From a virus, in the IMG/VR virus record IMGVR_UViG_3300028800_000220, positions 1 through 35,485 of that record: a stretch of DNA of 35,485 nt; one strand, 5' to 3'. A model generated the notes under the pieces. That model searched no databases. It saw only the letters and a program-made list of their open reading frames with translations, and was not told where the DNA came from. Position numbers and translations under genes: made by a program. Position 1 is the first letter of the stretch. Each line of letters begins with the position of its first letter. This document shows, in pieces, positions 6,196 to 31,158 of the stretch.

Positions 6196-6828
6196 ATGAA
6201 AATAGTATGTATAAGCGATACGCACTGTCAAATATCTAAGGTAATCCTGCCTGAAGGGGATGTGCTTGTTCATTCTGGGGATCTTACCTATCGTGGAAGT
6301 ACACACGAGATAGCTAACGAACTGAAATCTTTAAAGAAACAAGCCACAAATTTCAAGAATGTCATTATTACAGCGGGTAATCATGACTGGTTAGCTGAGA
6401 AAGATCCTACAATGATGAAAACTCTTTGTGGAGACAACGGTATCACCTATCTACTTGATTCTTCTGTAGAAATTGACGGAAAAGTGTTTTATGGTTCACC
6501 TTGGCAGCCAGAGTTTTTTAACTGGGCCTTTAATGTGCCTAGAGGACCAGAATTAGCCGCTATTTGGAAGAAGATTCCTGATAAGGTCGATGTGTTACTT
6601 ACCCATGGACCACCAGCTGGCATATTAGACCTATGTCCTGATGGTAGTAGGGTTGGCTGTGAAGATTTGTATAAAAGAGTTATCGAGGTAAAGCCGGAAC
6701 TTCATGTTTTTGGTCATATCCATCATTCTTATGGAATGCATCTTTTTAATGGTACAACATTTGTTAATGCGAGCATTTGTACTGAACAGTATAGACCAAC
6801 TAATAAGCCAGTAGTAGTAGAACTATAG
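6196..6828 (+). CDS. MPPED-type metallophosphoesterase
   Basis: 210 aa from the ATG at 6196, where the protein begins MKIVCISDTHC; the upstream in-frame TTG would add a tail not typical of the family. Calcineurin-like metal-binding motifs appear in order: DTH (residues 8-10), GDLTYRG, GNHDW, THGPP and GHIHHSYG. The block GSPWQPEFFNWAFNVPRG and GCEDLY places it close to MPPED1/MPPED2 (UPF0046) phosphodiesterases, which hydrolyse cyclic nucleotides or similar small substrates weakly. No Shine-Dalgarno sequence precedes the start; TATATT lies 6 nt upstream of the ATG. The substrate is unknown; cyclic-nucleotide signal degradation is a speculation. Confidence 0.85.
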   Translation: MKIVCISDTHCQISKVILPEGDVLVHSGDLTYRGSTHEIANELKSLKKQATNFKNVIITAGNHDWLAEKDPTMMKTLCGDNGITYLLDSSVEIDGKVFYGSPWQPEFFNWAFNVPRGPELAAIWKKIPDKVDVLLTHGPPAGILDLCPDGSRVGCEDLYKRVIEVKPELHVFGHIHHSYGMHLFNGTTFVNASICTEQYRPTNKPVVVEL

Positions 6829-7578
6829 CTTGTTAGATTTTCTTAGGTTTTCTGCTGCTGGTAGATATTGTAAGTTCCAAGGTACGTGAAGACCTCTAAC
6901 TTCTTCCCCGTTTAGTGGAACGATATGATCGACGTGAAATCCCTTAGGACAATTGACGTAAATACGTTTAATCTCTTCTTTTTGATGGTCAGATAGCCAT
7001 TTTGGGGTAGCTTGGATTTTTTGAGCACGATAAAAGGCCGTTCTGGAATTTTTTGCAGGTTGATTTCTTTTGTCGTATTCTCTTTTTATTTCTTTACGTT
7101 TTTCTGGATTTTCTTTGTCCCATTTAGCAGCGTTAGCTATGTATTCATCTGTTTTAGCTAAATATCGATTTTTATCCCATAATTTAACAAGATCTGGATT
7201 TTTATTTTTGTATATTTTTACTCTAGCCTTAATTTCTTCTGAATTTTCCTCATAAAAATCTTGATAGCACTTCTTACAAGAAGATACTAAACCTGTAAGT
7301 CTTTTCTCATTTTTATGGAAGTCATCTACCGGTTTATTCTCTTTACACTTAGAGCATCTTTTCATCCCATCCACTATTGGTTCGTGATTTAACCATCGTC
7401 TAGCTAGCGCCGCCTTCTTTTGTTCTGGGGTTAGAATTATTCCCCTTTCCCTAAAGAGTTTTTGTAGGCTAGGCTTTTTCATTCCTGTAGCTTTTACAAT
7501 ATCAGGAATAGCTTCGCCATCCATTCTCATTTCAACTGCTTTAGAAATAATATCATTTGTGTATTTAATCTTACTCAT
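6823..7578 (-). CDS. HNH homing-type endonuclease
   Basis: 251 aa. N-terminal residues 1-50 look like a helix-turn-helix (IPDIVKATGMKKPSLQKLF). A zinc-ribbon-like CSKCK...CKKC follows at about 75-105, then a long basic helical linker. The C-terminus is an HNH nuclease (HVDHIVPLNG, then HVPWNLQYLPAAENLRKSNK), a pattern common in phage free-standing homing enzymes. The stop overlaps the convergent metallophosphoesterase stop. There is no ribosome binding site, and AATCTTAT sits 4 nt before the ATG. Confidence 0.88.
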   Translation of the reverse strand: MSKIKYTNDIISKAVEMRMDGEAIPDIVKATGMKKPSLQKLFRERGIILTPEQKKAALARRWLNHEPIVDGMKRCSKCKENKPVDDFHKNEKRLTGLVSSCKKCYQDFYEENSEEIKARVKIYKNKNPDLVKLWDKNRYLAKTDEYIANAAKWDKENPEKRKEIKREYDKRNQPAKNSRTAFYRAQKIQATPKWLSDHQKEEIKRIYVNCPKGFHVDHIVPLNGEEVRGLHVPWNLQYLPAAENLRKSNKL

Positions 7579-7679: not shown

Positions 7680-9077
7680 TTACGTAGGATTATTCGGAGC
7701 CAACTGACCCGTGATATTCTCAAGGATCACGTTCTTCCTCGGTTGGTATGCAGCCAAGGACAAGAAGCGGAAATGAGCCTCCGGAAGTGACAGATCGCTA
7801 ACCGCAAGTTTCAGCTTGCTGTAAGGAGCCAACTGTCCGAATCCCATCGTATTCGCCTGAACCAAGAAGCCCGTGACCGAGCCAGGTTGACGATTTCCGA
7901 GATCCGTGAACGTCGCACCCGATCCAGCGCCATTCGCCGCGACCTTACCGATGAACTTGGCAACCGCTGCCGTTCCACCGAGATCCGAGCGATACACGCA
8001 GTAGTACTGTCCCGTACCGGTGATGGTCAGAGTGACCTTATCGCCAGCCGTAACAGCCTGAGTCTGCGCCGCAGACGGGAGAGACTCACCACGCATCGTC
8101 ACCGCAGTGACATAATATGCATAGCTACCGGTTTGGAGCAACGAACCCGCCGGGCCACCATCAGCGATGGTGAACGTCGGAGCCGCCGGGCTACCACTTC
8201 GCGGACGCGCCGGGCGCGTTTTGCCAGACAGGAAGCGCGAAGCTTCGAGCGAGACAACCGCACTAGAGGTCCACTGAGTACGCAAATGAGCACCAGTCGC
8301 TTCCTGAGCAGAGCCAGCAAGCATGATACGTTCTTTCGCGTGCGCGATCTTGTTATACGCGCTCAAGCTGATCGGATCAAGAACCAGTCTGTCCGCAGCG
8401 CCCATGTTCATGGCCGAACGAACCGAACTATCTTCGATCACTGACTGAGTAAGAGTTCCGCCGACCGACAGTACAACCGTCTGATCCGAACCATATTCAG
8501 CAAACATAAGATCCTGAGTATTTTGCTGACTGTCCGACTGACGAACCTGTTGATCAAGTCCAATCATATTCGGAACCTTAGCAACCGCAAGGGGGTTACC
8601 ATCAAACACGCCCGCGTTCGAGAAATCGCTCTGTCCACGGAAAGAGTCGAACTCGATATCGCCAGCGAGCTTCATCGCAGCGTCCGCAGCCGCACGATCT
8701 TCTGCCTTCACGCCATCGAACGCGCCGATGTAGTTAGCAGCAACCGTGACTCTACGAGTCGTGCTGTAGTATGCCATCGGCACCACTGCACGGACATAGT
8801 TAGACGTGTCTTCTTCGCCGATTCCGCCTTCAAACTGGGCCGAACCACCAAAGATACCATAATCCAACTGACGATTAAACTGATGCAATTGAGACTTCAC
8901 ATCCTTCGAAGGAAGCATCTTTTGCAGTTTAATATGACTGTCATCAAACGTTACATTGTGCATAACGGGCGAGAGATCCTCGACCATCAAAGCGGCTCCC
9001 TGAGCCAATTGTCCTGGAGCAGCATTGTAACTTCCTGCTTCAAGCGCCTTCATAAGTGACTGAAGTTGTTCAATCAT
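7680..9077 (-). CDS. Major capsid protein with inserted Ig/FnIII-like domain
   Basis: 465 aa from the ATG at 9077, chosen because AAGGAGA sits 7 nt upstream; an in-frame GTG further upstream would place that site inside the gene. Residues 20-290 and the C-terminal 60 residues look like a large-phage HK97-fold capsid subunit (helical, basic segments such as KAEDRAAADAAMKLA, then YSKLKLAVSDLSLPEAHFRFLSL). Residues about 300-400 form a beta-rich insert (SPAAPTFTIADGG, YAYYVTAVT, GESLPS, YYCVYRS) resembling Ig/fibronectin-III domains that decorate capsid surfaces. The gene sits last in an operon after the scaffold-like gene and before a strong terminator, with high-quality codons and raised GC, as expected for the most abundant virion protein. 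The HK97 fold is inferred from context. Confidence 0.75.
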   Translation of the reverse strand: MIEQLQSLMKALEAGSYNAAPGQLAQGAALMVEDLSPVMHNVTFDDSHIKLQKMLPSKDVKSQLHQFNRQLDYGIFGGSAQFEGGIGEEDTSNYVRAVVPMAYYSTTRRVTVAANYIGAFDGVKAEDRAAADAAMKLAGDIEFDSFRGQSDFSNAGVFDGNPLAVAKVPNMIGLDQQVRQSDSQQNTQDLMFAEYGSDQTVVLSVGGTLTQSVIEDSSVRSAMNMGAADRLVLDPISLSAYNKIAHAKERIMLAGSAQEATGAHLRTQWTSSAVVSLEASRFLSGKTRPARPRSGSPAAPTFTIADGGPAGSLLQTGSYAYYVTAVTMRGESLPSAAQTQAVTAGDKVTLTITGTGQYYCVYRSDLGGTAAVAKFIGKVAANGAGSGATFTDLGNRQPGSVTGFLVQANTMGFGQLAPYSKLKLAVSDLSLPEAHFRFLSLAAYQPRKNVILENITGQLAPNNPT

Positions 9078-9103
9078 TGTATTCTCCTTATTAAAATCCA
9101 CTG

Positions 9104-10144
9104 CTATTTAAGCAAATGGCTAATTCCTGTTACGTTTACTTGTCCTTGTTCGTAGTAAACGTTGATTGCGTCTCTATCTGATTTCTGTAACGAAGGTTCA
9201 GATGCTTTCTTACAAAGAATGGTATGAATATCAGCCTTCGTAAGTGTCTTTTCACTATCTTCCCCGGCGCCTTCGCTCTTCGCGATAACATCCATGGACG
9301 TGATAGCCTTGCCTGCAGGAGCAGCTTTCTTCTCAAGCAGCTTGGTCAAAAAAGCCGCAACTCCATCAAAGTTTTTCTTAAGTTCTTCGTATTTTGTGTT
9401 CGCCGAGCCAAGTTCCGATTTAAGCAACTCAACTTCGGTGTTTTCTGACTTTTGCATTTGAACTCCATCTGCCTTGCTAGCCGGTGATTTTGCACCTGGC
9501 GAATTGTGAGGCGCTTGTTCTTCAATCTTTCCACCATTTCGTCTAGCAGCTTCAGATTTGTTAATCTTTGCGCCGTTAGCATCGCTGGCTGGCGATTTCG
9601 GACCAAGAGCATTGTGAGGAGCACCCGCATCAATTCCACCATTTTTAGGATCAGAATCTAGGTTCTCGCCCTTCACTTTTGGCTGCGGAGGATTTTCAGA
9701 TTTGGTATTACCAATTCCGCCACCCTCTTCAGACTTGCCCATCATTCCGCCACCGCTAACGCATTTCATAATCGCGTCATGGTGTGCTTTTAGCTCGCCT
9801 TTTGACATGGACATATACATTTTATGCATATGCTGCATGTCCTCTTCATCATAATCATGGCCTTCGCTTGGAGCCTGCTCAGGATGTGCTTCGCCTTCCG
9901 GCGCCGCTTCCTGTTCAGGTTTCTCTTCACCTTCGGGCTTTTGTTCACCTTCGGGCTTAGCTTCGGGCTTAGCTTCGAAAGGCGGCTTCTTTTCGCCGTC
10001 TTCCGGCTTTTTCTCAGGCTTCTGTTCGCCATCTTCAGACTTAGCAAGAGTATTACCGACCTCTTCGGCCTTAGCCAAATGAGCCGTGAACTCTAGTTCT
10101 ACGTCCTGTATAAGCTTTGAAAGCTGTGTTTCGGTGTACTGCAT
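9104..10144 (-). CDS. Scaffold/prohead core-like protein, Pro-Glu-Lys rich
   Basis: 346 aa from the ATG at 10144 with GGAGGG 8 nt upstream; the longer in-frame start has no such site. Residues 40-110 are a low-complexity P/E/K-rich tract built from EGEQKPE-like units. Residues 110-135 are His/Met-rich. Residues 150-235 have two copies of an APHN(A/S)xGxKSPAS block. A coiled coil follows (ELLKSELGSANTKYEELKKN) at about 240-275. KSE occurs seven times. It lies directly upstream of the capsid gene, where scaffolds are usually found, and its acidic, disordered, coiled-coil character fits an internal scaffold removed by the protease. Function is inferred from position and composition. Confidence 0.55.
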   Translation of the reverse strand: MQYTETQLSKLIQDVELEFTAHLAKAEEVGNTLAKSEDGEQKPEKKPEDGEKKPPFEAKPEAKPEGEQKPEGEEKPEQEAAPEGEAHPEQAPSEGHDYDEEDMQHMHKMYMSMSKGELKAHHDAIMKCVSGGGMMGKSEEGGGIGNTKSENPPQPKVKGENLDSDPKNGGIDAGAPHNALGPKSPASDANGAKINKSEAARRNGGKIEEQAPHNSPGAKSPASKADGVQMQKSENTEVELLKSELGSANTKYEELKKNFDGVAAFLTKLLEKKAAPAGKAITSMDVIAKSEGAGEDSEKTLTKADIHTILCKKASEPSLQKSDRDAINVYYEQGQVNVTGISHLLK

Positions 10145-11080: not shown

Positions 11081-13327
11081 ATGAATAAGTGTTCTTATAT
11101 TGATGGAATAGCCTCTTCTCAGGCGATAGATTCAAGCGGCGAAATAGTGGATCTAAAAGGACTAGACACCTCCTCTCTTATTGGTGCGGTTCTGAATTGG
11201 GAACACAAAAGCGACAGTCCTTCCCAGATTTGTGGTAAGATATTGAAAGCCCACAAGATTTTCTCTAAGGAAGACTGTCAAGATGATAGGCAGTCATATT
11301 TTTGGAATAAGTACAAGATTCCATTCCTTTATATAATGGGTCGTCTTTTTGATGATCCAAAGAACCCAAAACCATCTGCTTTGGAAGTTGCCTCTTTGTT
11401 TAAAGACGACGCTGAACATCCCAACGAACCACCTGTCGTGGGTTTTTCAGTAGAAGGGGCAAAAATCCCCGGAGCAAAAGAGGGAATGACTATTACTCGT
11501 TCTATTGCTCGTAAAGTGACGATCACAAATTTACCTTGCAATAAGACTTGCGTTGCTGAACTAATGCCGTCACCTAAGGAATCGACAAATAAAGACAATC
11601 TACTTGGCTCTCTTTTCAAAGGCGAAATGGAATTGTTTAAGTTTGAGTCTACTTATGAAGAAATTCTTCAGAAAAAAGAAAGCGAAAGAATACCTACTTC
11701 TCAAAATGAAACCAATGAAGTTGTAAAAGGTACCGCAATGGATGTTGGTGCAGGCTACGAACCCAGCACGGGTGGCGGTCAGGGTGGAGGCGCCTCTGGC
11801 GGTGGAGCATTCATTGGAAGCCAACTAGCCATGTCAGAAGAAATGGATAAGGGCGAAGATGACGAATATAAACGATGGAGAGGGGCTGCAACTAGAGTAG
11901 GAGCCAGAAAGGCTGCAGTGTCTAGAAAAATCAACGATCATATAAAAGCAGGCGGAAAAAGCGATGCTCCAGAGATGGCAGATCATTGGGCACGATATAA
12001 AGATCTGCATGAACAATCAAAACAAATCAATGCAATGAATCCAAGAAAAAAATTAGCAAAAGGTGAGAATGGAGATTGGAAAAAAGAAGGATATACCTTA
12101 CGTTATGCCAAGGGAAATTTTAATACTGGCGGCCAACACTTAGTTCAAGCATTTGATAATAAAGGTAATCATATTGGAGAGACCGAACTTAGTGAGCATC
12201 ATTCCAAGGCATCCGGTGGACGCTTGCACCCCGTACAAACCTTTGTCGATCATAGGCATCGCAGGAAGGGAATTGCTTCTGCTATGTATAATCACGCAGA
12301 GGAGAAGACTGGTTTGAAAATACATCCGAGTCATAAACAAACAATTGAAGGTAAAAAATTCTCTGACAATAGAAAATCTGAAGATCTTAAAAAAGCTCTT
12401 ACCGCTGGATCTGCAATGGCTACACCTTCTCAATTGGTAGGCGGCGCCGCATTGGGGAAAGAAAGTCTTGAAAAACGTCCTAAGATGAATGCTATGATTA
12501 AAAAAGAAGAATTAAAGAAAGATACGGCGCCTACGGCTCCAACGCCTTCGCCTTCACCTGCACCGGTAACCGCAGAAGGAGTGCAGGCAGGATTCAACAA
12601 TGCACTTGGATTTGGTGGATCTTTGAAAAAGAAAGAAAAATCGCATTGGTATGAGCGTGCAGATCAAGCTTATAGTACTTGGGATAAAAAGAATCAGTTT
12701 AAGGACTATATGAAGAAAAGAATGCCTCATTTGGCCGAAGGAGAAATCGACTCTATCGGTAGAGTGTTGGCATTAAAAAAGACTGTTCAGGCTGAAGGCA
12801 AACTGTCTAAGATGTATGCAAGTTATTTTGGAAAAGCAGAAACCGGACATGAAATAGGCGTACATTCACAAGCCGATCAAGCAATTGCTTATGGAAAAAA
12901 GGGCATAAAAAGAGTAGGTGGAGTTTCTGCTGCAGGTGCAGATTATAGAGGCGCCGACGTTCATATGGCTAGAGTTAAACACAAAGAAGCTCTTCATGAA
13001 TTGAAACAAATGCCCTCTCCAAATCTTCCTAAATCTGAAAATATGAAGAAGAGCTATGAACCAGATCCTTCTCATGCTAAACAAAGCGGATATCATCCCA
13101 CTGAACCTGGCACCGAGTATATTCATGGTCTTCCTAAGGGACACCCCTCATTAGGAGAACATAAAGGCCATACTTATCGTAAGCTTTCGCCTCCTACTAA
13201 AGACCACAATTTCCATACCTGGGCTGTTAAAACGCCTAAAGGTCAGAATTATAAGGTTAATTTGCCCGCCCATACTGGTGGAAGCAGAGAGTCGATCCAC
13301 GAACACATCAACGCTCGTACAAAATAG
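11081..13327 (+). CDS. Prohead protease (XkdF-like) fused to a GNAT domain
   Basis: 748 aa. Residues 1-165 resemble phage prohead/XkdF-like serine proteases: an N-terminal YIDGIASSQAIDSSGEIVD strand pair, a candidate catalytic His in NWEHKS (H42) and Ser in VVGFSVEG (S123). A Gly-rich linker (about 230-243) follows. Residues about 335-420 look like a GNAT acetyltransferase, with the acetyl-CoA loop HRRKGIASAMYNHAEEKTG. The remaining 320 residues are basic and of unknown fold, with a Pro-rich linker at about 490-505. The ATG has no ribosome binding site but an AATCTTAT element 4 nt upstream. It is encoded opposite to the capsid operon it would serve. The protease assignment rests on weak similarity plus neighbourhood; the GNAT call rests mainly on motif A. 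Confidence 0.6.
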   Translation: MNKCSYIDGIASSQAIDSSGEIVDLKGLDTSSLIGAVLNWEHKSDSPSQICGKILKAHKIFSKEDCQDDRQSYFWNKYKIPFLYIMGRLFDDPKNPKPSALEVASLFKDDAEHPNEPPVVGFSVEGAKIPGAKEGMTITRSIARKVTITNLPCNKTCVAELMPSPKESTNKDNLLGSLFKGEMELFKFESTYEEILQKKESERIPTSQNETNEVVKGTAMDVGAGYEPSTGGGQGGGASGGGAFIGSQLAMSEEMDKGEDDEYKRWRGAATRVGARKAAVSRKINDHIKAGGKSDAPEMADHWARYKDLHEQSKQINAMNPRKKLAKGENGDWKKEGYTLRYAKGNFNTGGQHLVQAFDNKGNHIGETELSEHHSKASGGRLHPVQTFVDHRHRRKGIASAMYNHAEEKTGLKIHPSHKQTIEGKKFSDNRKSEDLKKALTAGSAMATPSQLVGGAALGKESLEKRPKMNAMIKKEELKKDTAPTAPTPSPSPAPVTAEGVQAGFNNALGFGGSLKKKEKSHWYERADQAYSTWDKKNQFKDYMKKRMPHLAEGEIDSIGRVLALKKTVQAEGKLSKMYASYFGKAETGHEIGVHSQADQAIAYGKKGIKRVGGVSAAGADYRGADVHMARVKHKEALHELKQMPSPNLPKSENMKKSYEPDPSHAKQSGYHPTEPGTEYIHGLPKGHPSLGEHKGHTYRKLSPPTKDHNFHTWAVKTPKGQNYKVNLPAHTGGSRESIHEHINARTK

Positions 13328-13332
13328 CCTTT

Positions 13333-13391
13333 CTTACCCATGGTAAGTAGAGATCTTAAACCGCCCTTAAAAAAGGCGGTTTTTGTTTTTT
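13333..13391 (+). terminator. Rho-independent terminator after the protease gene
   Basis: A CTTACC/GGTAAG hairpin (13333-13347) is followed by the stem CCGCC/GGCGG (13361-13379) and TTTTTGTTTTTT. The second hairpin and U-tract are a typical intrinsic terminator ending the protease transcript. Confidence 0.85.
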
Positions 13392-13419: not shown

Positions 13420-13427
13420 AATCTTAA
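13420..13427 (+). promoter_or_regulatory. AATCTTAA element upstream of the NAD-salvage genes
   Basis: TGATATAATCTTAAGTGTAAGG, cited here as the AATCTTAA core, lies 71 nt upstream of the PRPP synthetase-like ATG and just after the protease terminator. It also contains a TATAAT-like hexamer. Likely promoter of the accessory operon. Confidence 0.5.
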
Positions 13428-13445
13428 GTGTAAGGCAGGTTTGCT

Positions 13446-13493
13446 AAGTTATCCTAGATTGATGTGGATGCTTCGTAGACCTAAGATAAGGAG
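13446..13493 (+). promoter_or_regulatory. Leader hairpin abutting the ribosome binding site
   Basis: TTATCcTAG (13449-13457) can pair with CTAaGATAA (13481-13489), a stem that runs into the AAGGAG site (13488-13493) of the PRPP synthetase-like gene, so folding could limit ribosome access. The 11-mer AAGTTATCCTA and the AGGAGCCT of this leader recur at 15783-15812, in the RNA candidate after the NAMPT-like gene. Confidence 0.4.
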
Positions 13494-13498
13494 CCTAT

Positions 13499-14272
13499 AT
13501 GATTTATCTTAATGATGAAAAAATTGTTCCTACCATTTTTCCCGACAAGACCTCTCAAATTTGGAAAGTAAAAAATATCCCAACCGGCTATGTTGTTGCT
13601 AAAGTAGTGTGGATCTTCGAAAACGAGGGCGAATTTCTTCATTTGGCTCAGTTAAAGACTCTTCTAGATTATTATAACGTATTGTATTCCAAATTAACAA
13701 TGCATTATTTGCCATACGGTAGGCAAGATAAGGAAGTATCAAATGATACCACTTTTGCCTTAACTACCTTTGCAAAATTACTTAATTCTTTAAATTTTCA
13801 AAAAGTTACAATCGTCGATCCGCATAGTCCAGTTGCGTCTACATTAATACACAATTGCGAAGAATGGTATCCTCAAGACTATATCAATTCTGTTATGTTT
13901 ACTTGTAAAACAGATGTAGTTTGTTATCCAGACGACGGAGCCTACTGTAAATACGTCCCAATGTATCAATTTTCTCAACCACATATTCATGGAGAAAAAG
14001 TCCGCGATCAACTTACCGGCAATATCACTAGTTATAAATTGATCAATGATTTAGGTAATCTTGGCAATATTGTTGGAAAAAGTATTATGATTATCGATGA
14101 TATATGCGATGGTGGAATGACTTTCAAATTGTTAGCCAAAGATCTCTTGGCTGCAGGTGCTAAAGAGGTAAATCTCTTTGTCACTCATGGGATATTTTCA
14201 AAAGGTTTGAAAACTCTCAAAGATTCAGGGATCAACCGTATATTCACTCAGGATGGAGAAAAGAGTGAGTAA
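13499..14272 (+). CDS. PRPP synthetase-like enzyme (Prs or Adps-type)
   Basis: 257 aa against about 315 for cellular Prs. Motifs are YLPYGRQDK (residues 70-78, ATP site), IVDPHS (105-110) and the phosphoribosyl-binding loop IIDDICDGGMTF (198-209). Cellular enzymes make PRPP from ribose 5-phosphate and ATP. In the phage NARP1 pathway a Prs-like enzyme (Adps) instead pyrophosphorylates ADP-ribose. The loop reads DGGMT rather than the usual DTGGT, and the protein is shortened, both compatible with a specialised phage enzyme but not proof of ADP-ribose use. The gene is followed after 27 nt by the NAMPT-like gene. ATG preceded by AAGGAG. Confidence 0.85.
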   Translation: MIYLNDEKIVPTIFPDKTSQIWKVKNIPTGYVVAKVVWIFENEGEFLHLAQLKTLLDYYNVLYSKLTMHYLPYGRQDKEVSNDTTFALTTFAKLLNSLNFQKVTIVDPHSPVASTLIHNCEEWYPQDYINSVMFTCKTDVVCYPDDGAYCKYVPMYQFSQPHIHGEKVRDQLTGNITSYKLINDLGNLGNIVGKSIMIIDDICDGGMTFKLLAKDLLAAGAKEVNLFVTHGIFSKGLKTLKDSGINRIFTQDGEKSE

Positions 14273-14299
14273 ACTATTTCATATATAGGAGATTATAAT

Positions 14300-15778
14300 A
14301 TGAAAACTTTCAAAATGTCAGCAATGCTACTGTGTGATTTTTATAAACTTTCGCACAGATTGATGTATCCAAATAAGACCGAAGTCGTTTATTCTACGTG
14401 GACGCCCCGCGCTTCTAGAATGAAGGATGTTAATGAGGTAGTTGTTTTTGGAAATCAAAGAGTGGTCAAGTTTCTAAATGACTTCTTTCAAGAAAATTTC
14501 TTTTCTAGACCAAAAGCAGAAGTGGCTGCTGAATATGCTAGAATCGTCAAGTGTACCCTTGGTGTTGCTGATCCAGATGTTAGTCACATTGAAGCGCTAC
14601 ACGATCTTGGCTATCTACCGTTGCTCATTAAAGGAGTTGCAGAAGGTACTGTTGTTCCCTTGAGAGTTCCTACTTTAACCATTCAAAATACTGATCCCAG
14701 ATTTTTCTGGCTCACAAACTATGTTGAAACCCTTCTGTCTTGTGAACTATGGCCCGCTTATACAGCGGCTACTATTGCACATGAGTATCGCAAACTTCTT
14801 GATGATGCCGCAATGAGGACAGTTGGCAATACTGATTTTGTTCAATTTCAAGGGCACGATTTCTCCATGAGGGGAATGGGCGGCCTAGAAATGGCTACTA
14901 ATACGGGTCTTGGTCATTTGTTATCTTTTGCTGGCACGGATACTATCCCTGCTATTTTGGCAGCCGAGTATTACTATGGTGCTAATGTGGAAAAAGAACT
15001 TGTTGGCACTTCAATCCCAGCAACTGAACATAGTATTCAATGCGTTTACGGTGACGATATGGCATATTTAGACAATATGCTTTCAAAGGTTCACCATAGT
15101 GGATTTGTTTCCATCGTCTCTGATGGTTATGATTTCTGGGATGTGATTGGTCGAGTTATTCCAGCCCTTAAGGAAAAAATCATGGCCCGCAATGGTGGCC
15201 CTCTTGGTGATAGGGTTGTTATTCGTCCAGATTCTGGCGATCCGGTCCTAGTTGTTTGCGGAGATCCAGAAGGAAAAACTGAACTCGAACGTAAGGGTGC
15301 AGTAGAAGCTCTCTGGGATATCTTTGGCGGTACCGTTACCGAGAAAGGTTATAAACTTCTCGATTCCCATATTGGCCTTATCTACGGTGATGCCATTACG
15401 CTACGACGTGCAGAGGAAATCATCAACCGTCTTGCCGAAAAAGGATTTGCTTCCATTAATGTGGTATTGGGAATTGGATCTTTTTCGTACCAGTATAATA
15501 CCAGAGATACGTTTGGTTTTGCTTTAAAATCAACATCTTGTGTCGTTGATGGGGTAGAAAAACAGATCTTCAAAAATCCCAAAACTGATGACGGCATCAA
15601 GAAGTCACAAAAGGGAAAAGTTCTTGTTTACAGGACTAGTGGAAAGATCACCTATAGCGATGGCCATAGTCTGGATTCTGAACTTTCTGTAGATATGTTG
15701 CGACCTATCTTTAAGGATGGTATGCTACTTAATGAAGAAACATTTGAACAGATCAGAGCTAGACTTAAGAATGGATAA
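14300..15778 (+). CDS. Nicotinamide phosphoribosyltransferase-like enzyme (NadV/Namat-type)
   Basis: 492 aa, full length for NAMPT. The catalytic and ligand regions are recognisable: QFQGHDFSMRGMGG (183-196), PATEHS with His244 (equivalent to the human active-site His), IVSDGYDFW, VIRPDSGDP (R309, D311), YGDAITL, and the GIGS-type phosphate loop in VVLGIGSF. It condenses nicotinamide with PRPP to NMN, or, as Namat in NARP1, with ADP-ribose pyrophosphate directly to NAD+. It forms an operon with the upstream Prs-like gene; TAGGAG lies before the ATG. No NMN adenylyltransferase is seen in this window, which favours the two-enzyme NARP1 arrangement, although one could lie elsewhere. Confidence 0.9.
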   Translation: MKTFKMSAMLLCDFYKLSHRLMYPNKTEVVYSTWTPRASRMKDVNEVVVFGNQRVVKFLNDFFQENFFSRPKAEVAAEYARIVKCTLGVADPDVSHIEALHDLGYLPLLIKGVAEGTVVPLRVPTLTIQNTDPRFFWLTNYVETLLSCELWPAYTAATIAHEYRKLLDDAAMRTVGNTDFVQFQGHDFSMRGMGGLEMATNTGLGHLLSFAGTDTIPAILAAEYYYGANVEKELVGTSIPATEHSIQCVYGDDMAYLDNMLSKVHHSGFVSIVSDGYDFWDVIGRVIPALKEKIMARNGGPLGDRVVIRPDSGDPVLVVCGDPEGKTELERKGAVEALWDIFGGTVTEKGYKLLDSHIGLIYGDAITLRRAEEIINRLAEKGFASINVVLGIGSFSYQYNTRDTFGFALKSTSCVVDGVEKQIFKNPKTDDGIKKSQKGKVLVYRTSGKITYSDGHSLDSELSVDMLRPIFKDGMLLNEETFEQIRARLKNG

Positions 15779-15782
15779 ATAG

Positions 15783-16014
15783 AAGTTATCCTACGAGGCC
15801 TCGGTAGGAGCCTGAACGCATCTGGGAGATACTCGCAAGGTATCCTTGTCAGTGGCGGATAAAGGGTTTCAGGTAGACCCTCCGTTGGGAACCAGAGAGA
15901 GGCCAACATCAAAGTTGCAGAGTGGTCAAAATCTGATGCTCAGATGCGTATTCCGATGAACCGGATCTCGTATCTGGAGACAGAGATTATAGTTAAGAAT
16001 CTTCTTGCAGGGAA
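15783..16014 (+). ncRNA. Structured RNA candidate R1
   Basis: A gene-free stretch after the NAMPT-like gene. It starts with a TCCTAC/GTAGGA hairpin (15789-15809). A perfect 9-bp stem then closes a 131-nt domain: ACGCATCTG (15816-15824) with CAGATGCGT (15941-15949). Inside are GATAC/GTATC, AGGGT/ACCCT (extended by CGG/CCG) and GTTGG/CCAAC hairpins. It contains GTCAGTGGCGG, also seen in the 20941-21250 region. It ends just before the AAGGAG site of the next gene, so it may be a separate RNA or a 5' leader. No known family recognised. Confidence 0.5.
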
Positions 16015-17195: not shown

Positions 17196-18032
17196 ATGGA
17201 TGTAAAGGTAATCAGTTTAAGGTCAAAAGATTTCGATTATGATTTCATGGAATCCATAATTTCTACGGGGTTTGCGGTGGTGAAGAATTTCGGCGTAGAC
17301 CTAGGTCTTATTCGTGATACCCAAGCCGGATGGAAAGAGTTTTTCAATAAAAATAGAAGCTATAAGGATCAATTTGTCAATTCCAAAGATTCAAATTTGG
17401 GATTTACGGGATTTGGTGGCGAAAAGGCTGTAGGAGCACAAGTTGCTGATATTAAAGAATTTTTTCACTATAAACCAGGAGTACGGCTTCCAGATGAAGT
17501 GTCAGTTCTTACTCAAAAACTTTATTCTCTTCTAGAAGGAGATGTTTCTGGTCGTTTGCTTCACGCCCTAAATAGGAACGAATCAATCCCAGTAGATTTT
17601 GTTGAGGTGTGTAGAAATAGCAATAATACCCTCATGAGGGCAATTTATTACCCATCCCTGGACAGTATCAAACAAGAACCGGGTGCCGTAAGGGCAGCAG
17701 CTCATGAGGACATCAACATTCTTACACTATTGGTTGCCGCTAGTGCTCCAGGATTAGAAGTTCAAGATAATGTTGGACGGTGGCATTCCGTACCTTTTGA
17801 AGAAAACTCTTTGATCGTAAACGCAGGAGATATGCTTCAGCTTGCTAGCGGTGGGCGGTTTAAGTCTACTACACATAGGGTTGTCAACCCTGATAATTCC
17901 AATTCGGATAGGTTGTCAATCCCATTGTTTGTTCATGCCAATGGTGATACTATTCTAGTACCAGGCGTTACGGCACAACAATACCTTGATGAAAGACTTA
18001 ATGCTATTTATAAGGGCGGATATGGAAAATAG
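17196..18032 (+). CDS. 2-oxoglutarate/Fe(II)-dependent oxygenase
   Basis: 278 aa, isopenicillin-N-synthase-like. The iron triad is His170-x-Asp172 (AAHEDINILTLL) and His227 (STTHRV), with Arg239-x-Ser241 (DRLSIPLF) binding 2-oxoglutarate. The N-terminal part (IISTGFAVVKNFGV) matches the DIOX_N-type segment. Such phage enzymes are thought to modify nucleic acid or metabolites, but the substrate cannot be read from the sequence. TTGGAG precedes the ATG. The 3' end overlaps the start of the endonuclease gene by 11 nt. Confidence 0.85.
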   Translation: MDVKVISLRSKDFDYDFMESIISTGFAVVKNFGVDLGLIRDTQAGWKEFFNKNRSYKDQFVNSKDSNLGFTGFGGEKAVGAQVADIKEFFHYKPGVRLPDEVSVLTQKLYSLLEGDVSGRLLHALNRNESIPVDFVEVCRNSNNTLMRAIYYPSLDSIKQEPGAVRAAAHEDINILTLLVAASAPGLEVQDNVGRWHSVPFEENSLIVNAGDMLQLASGGRFKSTTHRVVNPDNSNSDRLSIPLFVHANGDTILVPGVTAQQYLDERLNAIYKGGYGK

Positions 18033-18630
18033 AAAAGTTTGCAATGTATGTAAACAACATAAATTACATATAGAATTTTGTAAAAATAAAGCAAGCAAAG
18101 ATGGATTAAATTATAAATGTAATAATTGCAATAAATTAGCAAGAATTAAATATTTGGTAAACAATAAAGACAAGGAACTCAAGAGACATAAATTATACAA
18201 ATTAAATAACAAAGAAAAAATTAAAAAAAATGATAAATTATATAGATTAAACAATAAACACAAAGAATATGGGAGACAAAAAATATGGAGAAAAAATAAT
18301 CCACAAAAAGTTAAAGATAAGGGCAAAAGAGCAAGAATGAAAACAGATAAATCAAAATTTAAAAATCTTTCTTTGTTATATAAATTTGGTATATCTTTAC
18401 ATGAATTTGAACTAATGGTAAAAAAACAAAGTAATTTATGTGCTATATGCAATTCGCAAGAAACTCTTTTTGATAAAAGAGCTAATAAAATAAGATCTCT
18501 TGTGGTAGATCACGATCACAGAAGTGGTAAAATTAGGGGACTTTTATGCGGTGCGTGTAATAAAGGATTAGGTTTATTTAAAGATAATTCAGAAATAATT
18601 AAAAAAGCTAGTGAGTATTTAAAATTATGA
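18022..18630 (+). CDS. Recombination endonuclease VII-type HNH nuclease
   Basis: 202 aa from the ATG at 18022, which overlaps the end of the oxygenase gene; AAGGGCGG precedes it. An N-terminal zinc ribbon (CNVCK...CNNCNK) is followed by a Lys/Asn-rich helical linker of about 70 residues and a C-terminal Endonuclease_7 domain: FGISLHEFELMVKKQSNLCAIC, the His-Me core VVDHDHRSGKIRGLLCGACN and GLGLFKDN. Relatives include both resolvase-type and mobile endonucleases. The coding sequence is far more A-rich than its neighbours and squeezed between two genes with overlaps at both ends, suggesting recent arrival as a homing element. Confidence 0.88.
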   Translation: MENRKVCNVCKQHKLHIEFCKNKASKDGLNYKCNNCNKLARIKYLVNNKDKELKRHKLYKLNNKEKIKKNDKLYRLNNKHKEYGRQKIWRKNNPQKVKDKGKRARMKTDKSKFKNLSLLYKFGISLHEFELMVKKQSNLCAICNSQETLFDKRANKIRSLVVDHDHRSGKIRGLLCGACNKGLGLFKDNSEIIKKASEYLKL

Positions 18631-19965: not shown

Positions 19966-19983
19966 CTTTATTTGGAGGACTAT

Positions 19984-20265
19984 GTGAAAAAAACAATTCT
20001 TGCTATTTTACTAATCAATTCATTGGGATATGCCCGAAATCCCACTTATACAGAAGACATCCAAGCTATCTTCAAAAATCGATGCTCTAGATGTCATGAT
20101 TATATGGCTGGAAAGAACTGGCAAAAGTATGAAGAAGCTTATAATTTTAGGTTACAAATCAAACAAAAAGTGTATACTAAGGAAATGCTAGCAGGCACTA
20201 ATGATATGCCACAGTCTGAAAGAGATCTGATCATTAATTGGGTTGATACTGGCGCTGCTAAGTAG
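19984..20265 (+). CDS. Secreted c-type cytochrome-like protein
   Basis: 93 aa from a GTG start six bases after GGAGG; no in-frame ATG lies nearby. Residues 1-18 form a signal peptide (two Lys, then TILAILLINSLGYA). The mature part has the covalent haem motif CSRCH in QAIFKNRCSRCHDY, followed near the C-terminus by MPQSERDLIINWVDTGA, where the Met is the likely axial ligand, as in small cytochrome c domains of the planctomycete-type. It would be exported and loaded with haem by the host system in the periplasm. An electron-transfer gene is unusual in a phage. It could rescue or modulate host respiration during infection, which is inference. Confidence 0.75.
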   Translation: MKKTILAILLINSLGYARNPTYTEDIQAIFKNRCSRCHDYMAGKNWQKYEEAYNFRLQIKQKVYTKEMLAGTNDMPQSERDLIINWVDTGAAK

Positions 20266-26222: not shown

Positions 26223-29222
26223 TCAAAAAGTAAAATAGAACCCACCTTTTTTTCCAGACGATATCACATTAGGCTCTCCACCTACCCTTTTGGCTATTTC
26301 TTCTTTCATTTGATTCTGATGAATTGAAGCCCTTTCCGCTGCGGCCATTTGCTCTGGATCGTGTGGATTTACAGGTTTTCCGTGATTATCCATCCAAACA
26401 GCCTCTGGTTTTTGGGTGCCTCGTACCGGAAAACAATTTTGACCGATATAACGTAAGGAGTCACAGATATCAGCCACCCCTCTTTCATCATCCGGGTTCA
26501 TAGTAGGATTTCCCTGCCCATCCAAAATAAATCTGTGTTTACTAATAGCCGTTATAGCTTTTTTGTTGGATTCATTTTGTATGATTTTAAAGAATCTTTT
26601 TCCACTTGCAGATGATATCTTCGACCGTACAGCCTCCACACCACCCAGTACATCTTTTTTGAAATTAGGACATTTCATACCATTTTTATTGAAAGATTTT
26701 AGATTAGAGGGCATTGCAGTATCGGCAAACCATTTATGTATTGTATATTTATCCCTATAAGCCTTTCCTACCTCTAGTTGATCTGCAAATTCCAATCCTG
26801 GAGAAGCGTATGTTTCCATGAGCCATACCTCACCATTTGGAATCATAGCCACTATCAAAAAAGTCGTATCATGAACATAACCCCAGTCTATTCCAGCATA
26901 AAAAAGTATTCCAAGATTTTTCATCGCATGAAGTAACATAAGCTCATTAACGGCTTTGTTTGTAGGTCCAAATAAAGTTTCCCAAGCTTGTTTTAATGTG
27001 ATGATATTTTCTGTTTTACTAAATCTAGGATAAACCAATCCAGTACTGCCGGGTTTCCAGCAATTGTGTACCGCGACGCCATTTGCAATGTAGCTGTGAT
27101 CTTTTTCTACTTCAATATTGTACACATACCCATTGTATGATTTTGTAGAGAGATTATCTATACGATACTGATTGTATTTATTTTCAAACTTAAACTTTGT
27201 TCGCTTTTGTTTATATATATGGTCCATGTCAATATAATGAACCAGGTAAGCTTGTTTACGATCCTTAACGGATGGTTTTTTAGTTATGCGTGGACAAAGT
27301 CCTAATCGAGCCGCAATAGTAAACAATTGTGATGCCAAATCGTAGCTTGTGGTAGTAAGTTCTTTATAGGGCTTTTTTCTCTTAGTGCCATCTCCAGCAT
27401 CAAAACCTTCAAGAATTCCCTTCAAGAAATTTAGATTCGCATCCATAAGTTTTGGGTGAAACTTTTTCTTGTCACTATATCGTCCACACATTGCCAGAAA
27501 TAATTCAGCAATAGTGGTATTGTAGTAATCAATTGTATACCCGTTTCCCTTTTTCGAAGCGAGTTCTGATGTTGACAATCCTATCGAAGAGGCAAATTTT
27601 CTAACACGTTCATGGTAATCTATCTCTCGTACATCTGAACAAAAAGTAATGGAAGTACAGCGTTTTTCTTTAGAATATGTACGTTCACTAACATATCCTT
27701 CTGCGGCATAATAGCCTATCATCCACCCAAAATCATAGTTTAAATTGAATTTTTCAGGAATGTAACGTCCCGTTGAATGCTTAAGTCTAATCTTTCCCCC
27801 CAAGGATTTAGTTTCCTTGTTTACCAAATCTTTAAATCTAATTTCTGTAGAATCATAGGGCTCATACTCTATTGGCAAAGAAACGTAATCACCTTTCGAT
27901 TTAAGGCCTCCAAAGCGATCAAATTTAAATGGTAAAATATTGGAAATACTTTTAAATTCTTTTCCATTAATAAAGTACGGGTGCTCTGGGGTTGCTATAG
28001 TGGAATCAAAATGTTTCCAGTTAACATTGTCAACTAAATAAACATCGCCTTCATATTTACGCTTAAAAACTTCAATAACCCTTTTTGATGATACAACATG
28101 CGTGATTACTCTGTCTCCTATTTTGACATTTTCTATGCTTTTGGATGTACCATCAGACATAAGAATCTGAGTTGTCGGTCCAAAACACATTAACTGTGCT
28201 TCAGCAGAATCTGGATCATTTTCTAGGAAAGACTGTATAACGGATACTATGGGTTTATGAAAACCTCCAGTTGCTTCAGGAGACTTATTAGCTAATCGCG
28301 TTTTACATACAGGCAACAGAGGACATTTTGCACATCCCTGGTGAACATTTTCTATGAGATCCCATTTTGGCTTTTCTATATCTGGAAGAATATTGAATTC
28401 TTCTATTGTCAAATTTTTTAATGGTAAATTTTTACCAATGTACACGTTTTGTTTTGGACCATTTGGTAAATGTCTCTCTGGAGGACATCTTTCACAGATA
28501 TCTATAATATTCCAGTTGATAATCTTATAATTCATGTCCGGCGCTCGATCAATGGCGATGGACATGTTTCCGTATGCATATTTACGAGTAGAAAGATATA
28601 CCTTTACACCATAAATACCTTTGCTATGACTGGTAATATATTTACCTTCGGAAAGTGCTTTGGGATCAGCTAAGTCCAACTCGTCTAGGAAAAGAACGTT
28701 GGAGTGAAGACTGTTCATTCCCTTAGGAGTACAAATAACGATTTTTATGAATGGTCTTTTTTGTTCTGGAGTTTTAAATTTAAAAAGACGTTTATTCTGA
28801 GTTAAGTTAGTCCATCCAGCGACTAACATTAATGGTTCTATTTTCATTAAAAAACTATCTATATAACCAAGAGCAACAGCCGACTGTTCTTCTGTGGCGG
28901 CGGCGTGACCAATGTCTAAGGAAAAGTGTGTCAAAAGAAGAGTCTCAAGAATAGCAACACTAACTGTTTTCATGCCTTCTCGACATGACATAAGTATATA
29001 ACCAGGATTTTTATCACCACTATTTGTTTTGAAAGTGTTGTAGATTTGCCAAATAGCATCTAATGGACTAGAATTGCTATCTGGATCAGTTATTTCTAGA
29101 GGGATTTCCAAGTCTAGAAACAGTCTAACCCAATTTTTTACATCCTCTGAAGAGTTTAGATGACTAAACATCATTTTAGAGAATTCAGTTTTTTCTAATT
29201 CTGTGAGATTTGAACAATCCAT
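26223..29222 (-). CDS. Terminase large subunit interrupted by an intein
   Basis: 999 aa precursor; about 624 aa after splicing. The ATPase part has a Walker A variant SCREGMKT (79-86) and Walker B NVLFLDELD (175-183). The RNase H-like nuclease has FYAGIDWGYVHDTT and, near the end, GVADICDSLRYIGQN. Between them is a Cys cluster (CERC at 243-246; CAKCPLLPVC at 297-306) that could bind zinc or Fe-S. The intein spans residues 346-720. It translocates DNA into the prohead and cuts concatemers. The start overlaps the 3' end of the small zinc protein gene by 38 nt. No clear ribosome binding site is seen before the ATG. Confidence 0.9.
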   Translation of the reverse strand: MDCSNLTELEKTEFSKMMFSHLNSSEDVKNWVRLFLDLEIPLEITDPDSNSSPLDAIWQIYNTFKTNSGDKNPGYILMSCREGMKTVSVAILETLLLTHFSLDIGHAAATEEQSAVALGYIDSFLMKIEPLMLVAGWTNLTQNKRLFKFKTPEQKRPFIKIVICTPKGMNSLHSNVLFLDELDLADPKALSEGKYITSHSKGIYGVKVYLSTRKYAYGNMSIAIDRAPDMNYKIINWNIIDICERCPPERHLPNGPKQNVYIGKNLPLKNLTIEEFNILPDIEKPKWDLIENVHQGCAKCPLLPVCKTRLANKSPEATGGFHKPIVSVIQSFLENDPDSAEAQLMCFGPTTQILMSDGTSKSIENVKIGDRVITHVVSSKRVIEVFKRKYEGDVYLVDNVNWKHFDSTIATPEHPYFINGKEFKSISNILPFKFDRFGGLKSKGDYVSLPIEYEPYDSTEIRFKDLVNKETKSLGGKIRLKHSTGRYIPEKFNLNYDFGWMIGYYAAEGYVSERTYSKEKRCTSITFCSDVREIDYHERVRKFASSIGLSTSELASKKGNGYTIDYYNTTIAELFLAMCGRYSDKKKFHPKLMDANLNFLKGILEGFDAGDGTKRKKPYKELTTTSYDLASQLFTIAARLGLCPRITKKPSVKDRKQAYLVHYIDMDHIYKQKRTKFKFENKYNQYRIDNLSTKSYNGYVYNIEVEKDHSYIANGVAVHNCWKPGSTGLVYPRFSKTENIITLKQAWETLFGPTNKAVNELMLLHAMKNLGILFYAGIDWGYVHDTTFLIVAMIPNGEVWLMETYASPGLEFADQLEVGKAYRDKYTIHKWFADTAMPSNLKSFNKNGMKCPNFKKDVLGGVEAVRSKISSASGKRFFKIIQNESNKKAITAISKHRFILDGQGNPTMNPDDERGVADICDSLRYIGQNCFPVRGTQKPEAVWMDNHGKPVNPHDPEQMAAAERASIHQNQMKEEIAKRVGGEPNVISSGKKGGFYFTF
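27063..28187 (-). mobile_element. Intein with LAGLIDADG homing endonuclease
   Basis: 375 residues, starting at Cys346 (CFGPTTQILMSDG, splicing block A) with a TPEHP block B, and ending with block F/G GYVYNIEVEKDHSYIANGVAVHN, cited here as its ends, so that HN precedes Cys721. Two LAGLIDADG helices (FGWMIGYYAAEG at about 498-509 and FLKGILEGFDAGDG at 599-612) mark a full endonuclease. Splicing would join AEAQLM to CWKPGSTG, between the terminase ATPase and nuclease domains. All residues for splicing look intact. Confidence 0.92.
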
Positions 29223-29385: not shown

Positions 29386-31158
29386 TTACGTCCGTTCGTT
29401 GGCTTCGTTCTTATACTGTTCCGGGTTGTCTACAGCTCTTCCATATTCAGCGTCGGCACGCGCTTCTGATCTTTCAAAGGCATCATCTCTAGGATAGGCT
29501 ACAATTCCGCCCATAGTACCAAGCACACTGGCTATACTAACTGCATTACTCAATGATTCTGATACTGCCTTTGCTGCATCTAGAAGGCCCAACTCTTCAG
29601 CCTTTCCAAATACTTGGTTTTCAACATCATATACGGATTCGCTATCTTCTATAAGTCTGGCCATAATATCATTGATTTCTTCTTTATGGTAACCAGCATT
29701 GTCAAGTAACTTATGGGGAAGCGCAAGTAAAGCTTTTATCAAAACTTCACTAGCCGGATCGCCTTCAGGAAATTCTGAAGAAAGTTTCATAACCATATCA
29801 ATAGCAAGCCTGCAACCACCAGGAACGGCACCATGAATAATAGCTGAGCGGACAGCACAAACAGCATCTTCACAGCGGTCGTGAGCCTCTTTTAGCTCTC
29901 CGTTAGAACCACCAAAAATAGTAAGTTTGGCGATGCCATTGGTAATTTTTCCCAAGCGCTCTTCTAGCATGATTTTTTCTGCCGCACTTTCGGCATTTTT
30001 CATCATTGTTTTAAGTTCTTCTGCCCTGACCTCCACATTCATGGGATCTGGATCGCCAATAACAGTGCTTCGAAAGCGATAAGCCTCAAAACTTTCCATT
30101 CCTCTACCCAAATCTTCCAAAGTTGCATTTCCAATCTGTTCTCTCAATCCAAAAACTTTGGCGCCAGTAAAGGCTGCAAGATCGTGCAGAAAATGTGTTT
30201 GGCTATTCAAAAATTGTGCCATCGGTGTAATTAACGGCAAGACATTCAAGGTATTTGGATTGGAAAAGTTAAACGCAAGCTGTGTCAAAACATTTTCGCT
30301 AAATCCATGACAGACGATGACCAGATTCTTGTAATCTGAGTTCCCTTCCTCTACATATTTCTTACCAAGACCGTCTAGCAAAGGCATAAACATAAGGAGA
30401 TCATTAATGTGACCATCATAAAGAAGAAATAGGGGCTTCTCCAGGAAAGCGCGTTGGTTTGCTTGATCGTTAATAAAAGCTGTGTGTAGTTTTCCAATAG
30501 ATTCCTCAAACCCTATGGGAATTGGAAATCCATCAATCCTCTCTACGACATAATTTGGTTTTCCACTAAGTTGTCGAATTGTAATGTGGGAACTTTCTCC
30601 GAAACCAATCTCTTCAAAGGCTTTGATTACTGCATCTGCCATTTCAGAATCGCCATTAGCGCTGATTTGCGCTACCATCTTGAGTAGTTGTTTATTTTCT
30701 TCCGTAATTTTGATGGTTTTAGATTCAATAAATGGCAACAAAATATCGTTAACCACTTTTCTAATCCTGCGGGTAGCTTTCTGCGGACTATATTTAGGAT
30801 TTTTTTCGCAAAAATCGAAAAGATTTTCAATAATACTATACGACAAAATAGTAGCCGTAGTAGTACCATCTCCAACTTCTGAAGCCGTTCTGGTGGCCAC
30901 ATCTCTAGCTGTTTCAATGATTAGGTGTGCATAAGCATTTTGATCTCCTAGAGATTTGAATATAGTTACACCATCTTTAGTAATCGTATTGCTAATTCCA
31001 GGATAATCGCTTTCAATCGTTGTCAACTTTCCGCAAGGTCCTAAACTACTTCCAACAGCGTCGCTAACCCTTTTCATTGTTTTAAGAACTATTGATTGAA
31101 GTTTTTTCTGGTCAGTCTCAAACATTTTGGGACTTGTTTTAGCCTTACGATATGACAT
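29386..31158 (-). CDS. Phage GroEL-type chaperonin
   Basis: 590 aa against about 545 for GroEL. ATPase motifs are SSLGPCGKLTTI (GPxG at 40-43), TKDGVTIF and GDGTTTATIL (97-106). The second equatorial half has HDRCEDAVCAVRSAIIHGAVPGGC, matching the GroEL region with the catalytic Asp. The C-terminus lacks the GGM repeats. The apical domain is divergent. No GroES-like partner is visible in the window. Phage chaperonins of this kind are thought to fold virion proteins, sometimes without co-chaperonin. AGAGGT precedes the ATG. It lies next to terminase, within the head module. Confidence 0.9.
   Translation of the reverse strand: MSYRKAKTSPKMFETDQKKLQSIVLKTMKRVSDAVGSSLGPCGKLTTIESDYPGISNTITKDGVTIFKSLGDQNAYAHLIIETARDVATRTASEVGDGTTTATILSYSIIENLFDFCEKNPKYSPQKATRRIRKVVNDILLPFIESKTIKITEENKQLLKMVAQISANGDSEMADAVIKAFEEIGFGESSHITIRQLSGKPNYVVERIDGFPIPIGFEESIGKLHTAFINDQANQRAFLEKPLFLLYDGHINDLLMFMPLLDGLGKKYVEEGNSDYKNLVIVCHGFSENVLTQLAFNFSNPNTLNVLPLITPMAQFLNSQTHFLHDLAAFTGAKVFGLREQIGNATLEDLGRGMESFEAYRFRSTVIGDPDPMNVEVRAEELKTMMKNAESAAEKIMLEERLGKITNGIAKLTIFGGSNGELKEAHDRCEDAVCAVRSAIIHGAVPGGCRLAIDMVMKLSSEFPEGDPASEVLIKALLALPHKLLDNAGYHKEEINDIMARLIEDSESVYDVENQVFGKAEELGLLDAAKAVSESLSNAVSIASVLGTMGGIVAYPRDDAFERSEARADAEYGRAVDNPEQYKNEANERT

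Follow-up and report, generated by a model that had tools for sequence, protein, structure and literature searches.

NARP1 is a recently described system in which an Adps and a Namat act together on NAD+. The homologues from ICP1 (NrsAB), SPbetaL1 and DyoEdafos rebuild NAD+ or counter NADase defence (PMC11559045; PMC12774641; PMC13232231), and the homologue from Paenibacillus foliorum likewise belongs to this set. The SPbetaL1 Namat was crystallised with NAD+ (chain 9w5x). The adenine clamp of Namat has two parts: Arg40 in a loop, and a helix with the motif GSX..X..TRD, in which positions 3 and 7 are aromatic (PMC12774641). Use of ADPR-PP requires this clamp, while the older PRPP reaction does not (PMC12774641). 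Namat also forms NMN from PRPP in vitro, and dual use is therefore possible.

We analyzed a stretch of viral DNA of 35,485 bases (the window), which is an entire IMG/VR virus record, classed as linear and probably a fragment. Two adjacent genes in the window are, with a probability of about 0.9, a tailed-phage NARP1 operon that rebuilds NAD+ from ADP-ribose and nicotinamide against NADase defence. A first-pass annotation of the same DNA had proposed such NAD+ rebuilding over simple PRPP supply, and the proposal was supported by every test that the sequence allows (trees and pocket residues). The assignment draws directly on the intact genes, their family membership, the modelled fold of Adps, the clamp and catalytic residues, the operon order and the conservation in relatives. 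Both reactions, and a role against defence, are inferred from the characterised members. Adps would move pyrophosphate from ATP onto ADP-ribose, and Namat would join the resulting ADP-ribose pyrophosphate to nicotinamide, so that NAD+ forms directly and no NMN adenylyltransferase is needed. In an infected cell whose TIR, SIR2 or SEFIR NADase defence has released ADP-ribose and nicotinamide, the pair would rebuild NAD+ from these two products, and the phage could finish replicating.

The gene pair and its place in the window

The window carries tailed-phage genes for a major head protein, a head maturation protease-like protein, a portal, a terminase, a helicase and an SbcD-like nuclease. The head maturation protease-like protein is encoded at 11081-13327, and the pair lies between this gene and a region of small ORFs. 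The Prs-like ORF and the full NAMPT-like ORF noted in the first-pass annotation exist exactly where they had been placed. Both are intact and co-directional, and they adjoin directly with 27 bp between them. Good ribosome-binding sites were read by eye in front of each gene, AAGGAG (13488-13493) for the adps-like gene and AGGAGA (14287-14292) for the namat-like gene. The features of the region are:

13358-13382, + strand: terminator-like inverted repeat followed by a T-rich run, 5' of the pair (inverted-repeat finding)
13425-13498, + strand: 5' leader in which a modest hairpin is predicted; contains the ribosome-binding site AAGGAG (folding, z -2.0)
13499-14272, + strand: adps-like gene, predicted ADP-ribose pyrophosphate synthetase with a Prs fold, 257 aa (profiles, trees, residues, model)
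14300-15778, + strand: namat-like gene, predicted nicotinamide ADP-ribose transferase of the NAMPT family, 492 aa (profiles, residues, tree)

The pair had been described as having its own promoter-like element and a leader hairpin. A scan for sigma-70-type promoters gave 8 matches in the region versus 7.6 expected, none of them convincing 5' of the operon, and the promoter-like element was therefore not borne out. The leader does have a predicted fold, but its advantage over shuffled sequences is modest (z -2.0, 9/200). An Rfam search of the window with E up to 1 gave zero matches and therefore no known riboswitch. The element GTTATCCTA, common to the 5' (13448) and 3' (15785) flanks of the operon, was rejected as being within chance for the window. 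The 226 bases 3' of the Namat gene (15779-16004) were found to be without a clear gene, an Rfam match or a fold beating shuffles, and folds of 15776-16010 were no better than shuffles.

The pair is present as an identical copy (100%) in another IMG/VR contig, L005. It is syntenic in several related contigs, where it adjoins genes for a head maturation protease-like protein, a 2OG-oxygenase and a DNA ligase. Based on this shared neighbourhood the pair is a stable part of the phage group.

Other genes of the window were recorded in passing. The terminase large subunit ORF (26223-29222, - strand, 999 aa) contains an intein-like insert (Hint and LAGLIDADG_3, residues 346-720 approximately), and a GroEL-like chaperonin of 590 aa is encoded at 29386-31158 on the - strand (phrog_5725, Cpn60_TCP1). 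A 97-aa ORF (19972-20265, + strand) may encode a phage c-type cytochrome: it contains the haem motif CxxCH, and Pfam cytochrome c models match it weakly, under their cut-offs. Three genes scattered over the window probably encode homing or endonuclease VII-type endonucleases (2211-2966, - strand; 6823-7578, - strand; 17986-18630, + strand).

Assignment of the two proteins to Adps and Namat

The best PHROGs family of the Prs-like protein was phrog_619 (6.6e-61), which is named ribose-phosphate pyrophosphokinase. An Adps profile from which its own clade was withheld gave the protein 225 bits, and a Prs profile of four sequences gave 47.5 bits. In two trees a branch set all Prs apart from the window protein (96/97; SH-aLRT 97). 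In the larger tree the protein was found in a clade of 26 rows (99) that is sister to the SPbetaL1-type Adps (SH-aLRT 92). This clade has zero characterised members, and with Adps beyond it the window protein shares just 26-37% identity. The tree comparison suggested by the first-pass annotation thus put the protein outside the Prs clade and beside the SPbetaL1-type Adps.

The residues agree with this position. P72, S110, A148, T173, G174 and F209 match 4/4 reference Adps (SPbetaL1, ICP1, DyoEdafos and Felixounavirus Barry), while E. coli-type Prs differ. The catalytic residues R75, D77, H109, D145, K167, R169, D200 and D201 are retained. The last two are part of the following loop:

14096-14125, + strand: loop at residues 200-209 with the Adps-type sequence DDICDGGMTF, equivalent to the ribose-phosphate loop DDMIDTGGTL of Prs (alignment)

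The latter sequence is that of E. coli Prs. The altered PRPP loop reported in the first reading of this DNA is real, and DDICDGGMTF is the usual Adps loop. Position 205 is Thr or Ser in all sampled Prs and Gly, Phe, Tyr or Arg in all Adps, and the altered loop is therefore a family trait of Adps. An ordinary Prs is expected to combine a D..DTGGT loop with a score above the curated cut-offs. The window protein has DDICDGGMT and was found to lie under every NCBIfam Prs cut-off (TIGR01251: 69 bits versus a cut-off of 113). An AlphaFold model (pLDDT 94) had Prs as its nearest fold, with a Z of 22.2 to 3mbi. A predicted Prs fold is expected whether the substrate is ADP-ribose or ribose 5-phosphate and leaves this choice unsettled; a sequence search found no solved Adps structure. 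Judged by its sequence, the Prs-like protein is an Adps.

The NAMPT-like protein matched phrog_448 (1.4e-186) and NCBIfam PRK09198 (517 bits; cut-off 405). It is about 59% identical (58-59%) to phage homologues including the SPbetaL1 Namat, with 59% identity and 646.7 bits to chain 9w5x. Both parts of the selectivity clamp were located by alignment:

14417-14419, + strand: Arg40 codon, for the residue in the selectivity-clamp loop that stacks on adenine, numbered as in SPbetaL1 Namat (alignment)
15476-15508, + strand: selectivity-clamp helix GSFSYQYNTRD, residues 393-403, with F395/Y399 corresponding to SPbetaL1 F392/Y396 (alignment)

R40 aligns with Arg40 of SPbetaL1 without a gap, and F395 and Y399 are the aromatics at positions 3 and 7. 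D13, Y15, F188, R191, D214, H244, R309 and D311 of the catalytic core are retained, and every published NAM, ribose-phosphate and adenine contact is present, including R40, F395, Y399, T401 and D403. The comparison of pocket residues, which had been proposed as a check, thus showed that the clamp and the catalytic core of the SPbetaL1 Namat are both complete in the window protein. At the clamp site, the NadV of cells and of T4-like phages read GG.LLQ..(N, D or T)RD and are without the clamp aromatics. An ordinary NadV or NAMPT would show GG.LLQ..RD or non-aromatic residues at positions 3 and 7, whereas the window protein has the full aromatic clamp. A 100/100 branch parts the Namat group from the NadV of Cupriavidus, Novosphingobium and T4-like phages, and places the window protein among the characterised Namats and across from the sampled NadV/NAMPT, in the tree comparison that the earlier annotation had proposed. 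In family terms, and on the basis of these residues and the tree, the NAMPT-like protein is a Namat.

Two genes outside the window were also noted. The H. ducreyi NadV (L034:2453-3940) nests on the Namat side of the tree yet is without both clamp aromatics, which is probably a secondary loss, as if a Namat had reverted to NAMPT use. An Acinetobacter baumannii gene in the place of NadV (L035:2501-3979) carries the Namat clamp motif GSFTYNYLTRD.

The clamp and Adps were found to go together in 161 Namat-family loci (the window, and 80 loci each from viruses and bacteria that were retrieved by their similarity to Namat). Adps was present within 5 kb in 137/137 clamp-bearing loci with at least 2.5 kb upstream, versus 0/6 loci without a clamp aromatic. 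The six clamp-less loci stem from only two lineages, Acidimicrobiaceae and Pasteurellaceae, so that the Fisher p of 9e-11 counts them as more independent than they are. A seventh clamp-less locus, from Pelotomaculum, had too little upstream sequence and was left uncounted.

These results bear on plain salvage, in which an ordinary Prs would supply PRPP, an ordinary NadV would turn it into NMN and a host NMNAT would complete NAD+. The Prs and NAMPT folds of the two proteins agree with such a route, as does the NMN-forming activity with PRPP that is still present in Namat in vitro. We nevertheless regard it as very improbable, since the Prs-like protein is under all Prs cut-offs, has lost the DTGGT loop and has the Adps-only residues, since the NAMPT-like protein has a full adenine clamp that is absent from NadV/NAMPT, and since clamp-bearing proteins always occurred with Adps and clamp-less ones never did.

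Search for an NMNAT and possible sources of ADP-ribose

The absence of an NMN adenylyltransferase from the window, noted in the first reading, was confirmed by an empty search for PF01467 (the NMNAT-type domain) in this 35-kb probable fragment; seven related records also gave none. Only two proteins in further related phage contigs had PF01467 (L288 and L289), and they were rejected as NMNAT because CoaD was their best NCBIfam match (TIGR01510; one above and one below cut-off). Thus no recognisable phage NMNAT was found in related phage contigs of 165-182 kb. The same search of a bacterial MAG (G015) found PF01467 proteins of its own, as expected. For this phage itself the absence is indirect because the window is a fragment. 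A NARP2-type pathway, where NMN from the NAMPT-like enzyme is turned into NAD+ by an NMN adenylyltransferase encoded in another part of the phage genome, would have room for its distant gene outside such a fragment. It is extremely unlikely, since relatives up to 182 kb, like the window, had no PF01467 protein save the two matching CoaD, and the sampled NadV/NAMPT sequences are without the clamp and lie on the opposite side of the tree.

Relatives often have further genes at the pair. In L008 and L057 a NADAR gene and a macro-domain gene follow it. Among 146 distinct loci we found 15 macro matches, with the proteins checked with Pfam, and 22 NADAR matches near NARP1; 10 and 15 of these, respectively, were within 400 bp, and 37/37 were on the same strand. 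Macro-domain or NADAR genes beside or between Adps and Namat are located at L008:8284-8772 and 8823-9359, L048:6407-6892, L064:6428-6979, L079:2851-3588 and L054:6645-7232. Further phage or bacterial loci with such a neighbour are L141, L153, L164, L166, L167, L174, L180, L193 and L202. The NADAR of L008 also matches a riboflavin-intermediate N-glycosidase model, so that its substrate is uncertain and its role with ADP-ribose hypothetical. NADAR adjoining NadV and NadM in phages was already noted (PMC9503650), and none of the papers searched links NARP1 with NADAR. The macro and NADAR neighbours possibly form a wider ADP-ribose recycling cassette around NARP1, and their recurrence hints at the source of some of the ADP-ribose.

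Alternatively, the pair could serve the general NAD+ housekeeping of a large phage and recycle ADP-ribose that stems not from NADase defence but from cyclic ADPR signals or from DNA, RNA or protein carrying ADP-ribose. This competes only with the anti-defence role because the two reactions are the same. It would fit the macro-domain and NADAR genes that adjoin Adps-Namat in related cassettes, always on the same strand, the presence of NARP1 on bacterial chromosomes as well, and the gene embedded in the DyoEdafos NARP1 that makes ADPR from cADPR. We consider housekeeping unlikely, however, as no NADAR or macro domain was found among the window ORFs scanned with Pfam, as the substrate of the L008 NADAR is uncertain, and as the phage NARP1 pairs tested so far counter NADase defence. 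Defence against NADases is thus the preferred role. A tentative and rather unlikely idea is that the NARP1 operons of this deep uncharacterised Adps lineage, together with macro-domain or NADAR enzymes, make up wider cassettes for recycling ADP-ribose, and may use ADP-ribose released by ADP-ribosylated macromolecules or signals, beyond the leftovers of NADases.

Comparison with known systems

The pair is a divergent new member of NARP1, and the system itself is already known. What is new is that the gene falls, in our trees, in a deep Adps clade without a characterised member. This adds to NARP1 a third Adps lineage and a phage group for which the search of deposited phage records gave no close relative (59% at best for Namat and 39% for Adps). 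With the clamp motif and the Adps loop and residues, NARP1 can be told from plain NadV/Prs salvage by sequence alone; the database names "ribose-phosphate pyrophosphokinase" and "nicotinamide phosphoribosyltransferase" obscure this difference.

The NARP1 of SPbetaL1 (Adps WIT26982.1, Namat WIT26983.1; structures 9w5w/9w5x) has the same order of Adps then Namat. Its Namat is 59% identical to that of the window with identical catalytic and clamp residues, and its Adps belongs to the sister clade. In contrast, the two Adps are only about 33% identical and differ in the loop (DDLSSFGGTF versus DDICDGGMTF), and the SPbetaL1 genes overlap while those of the window are 27 bp apart. The Felixounavirus-, ICP1- (NrsAB) and DyoEdafos-type NARP1 share the gene order and have an Adps loop, DDICDG..[TS]F, that is nearly identical to the one in the window, but the overall identity of their Adps to the window Adps is 26-34%, and in DyoEdafos RyDEP is inserted between the Adps and Namat genes. 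The H. ducreyi plasmid NadV (NC_005329) is about 50% identical to the window Namat and of the same fold family, but it is without an adjoining Adps and both clamp aromatics are replaced (GAQTYQRNTRD). Bacterial Prs have the same fold as the window Adps, with Z values up to 22.2 and about 20% identity, and the same catalytic residues, but they are about 60-70 residues longer, have the Thr of the ribose-phosphate loop that is lost in Adps and are without the Adps-specific residues.
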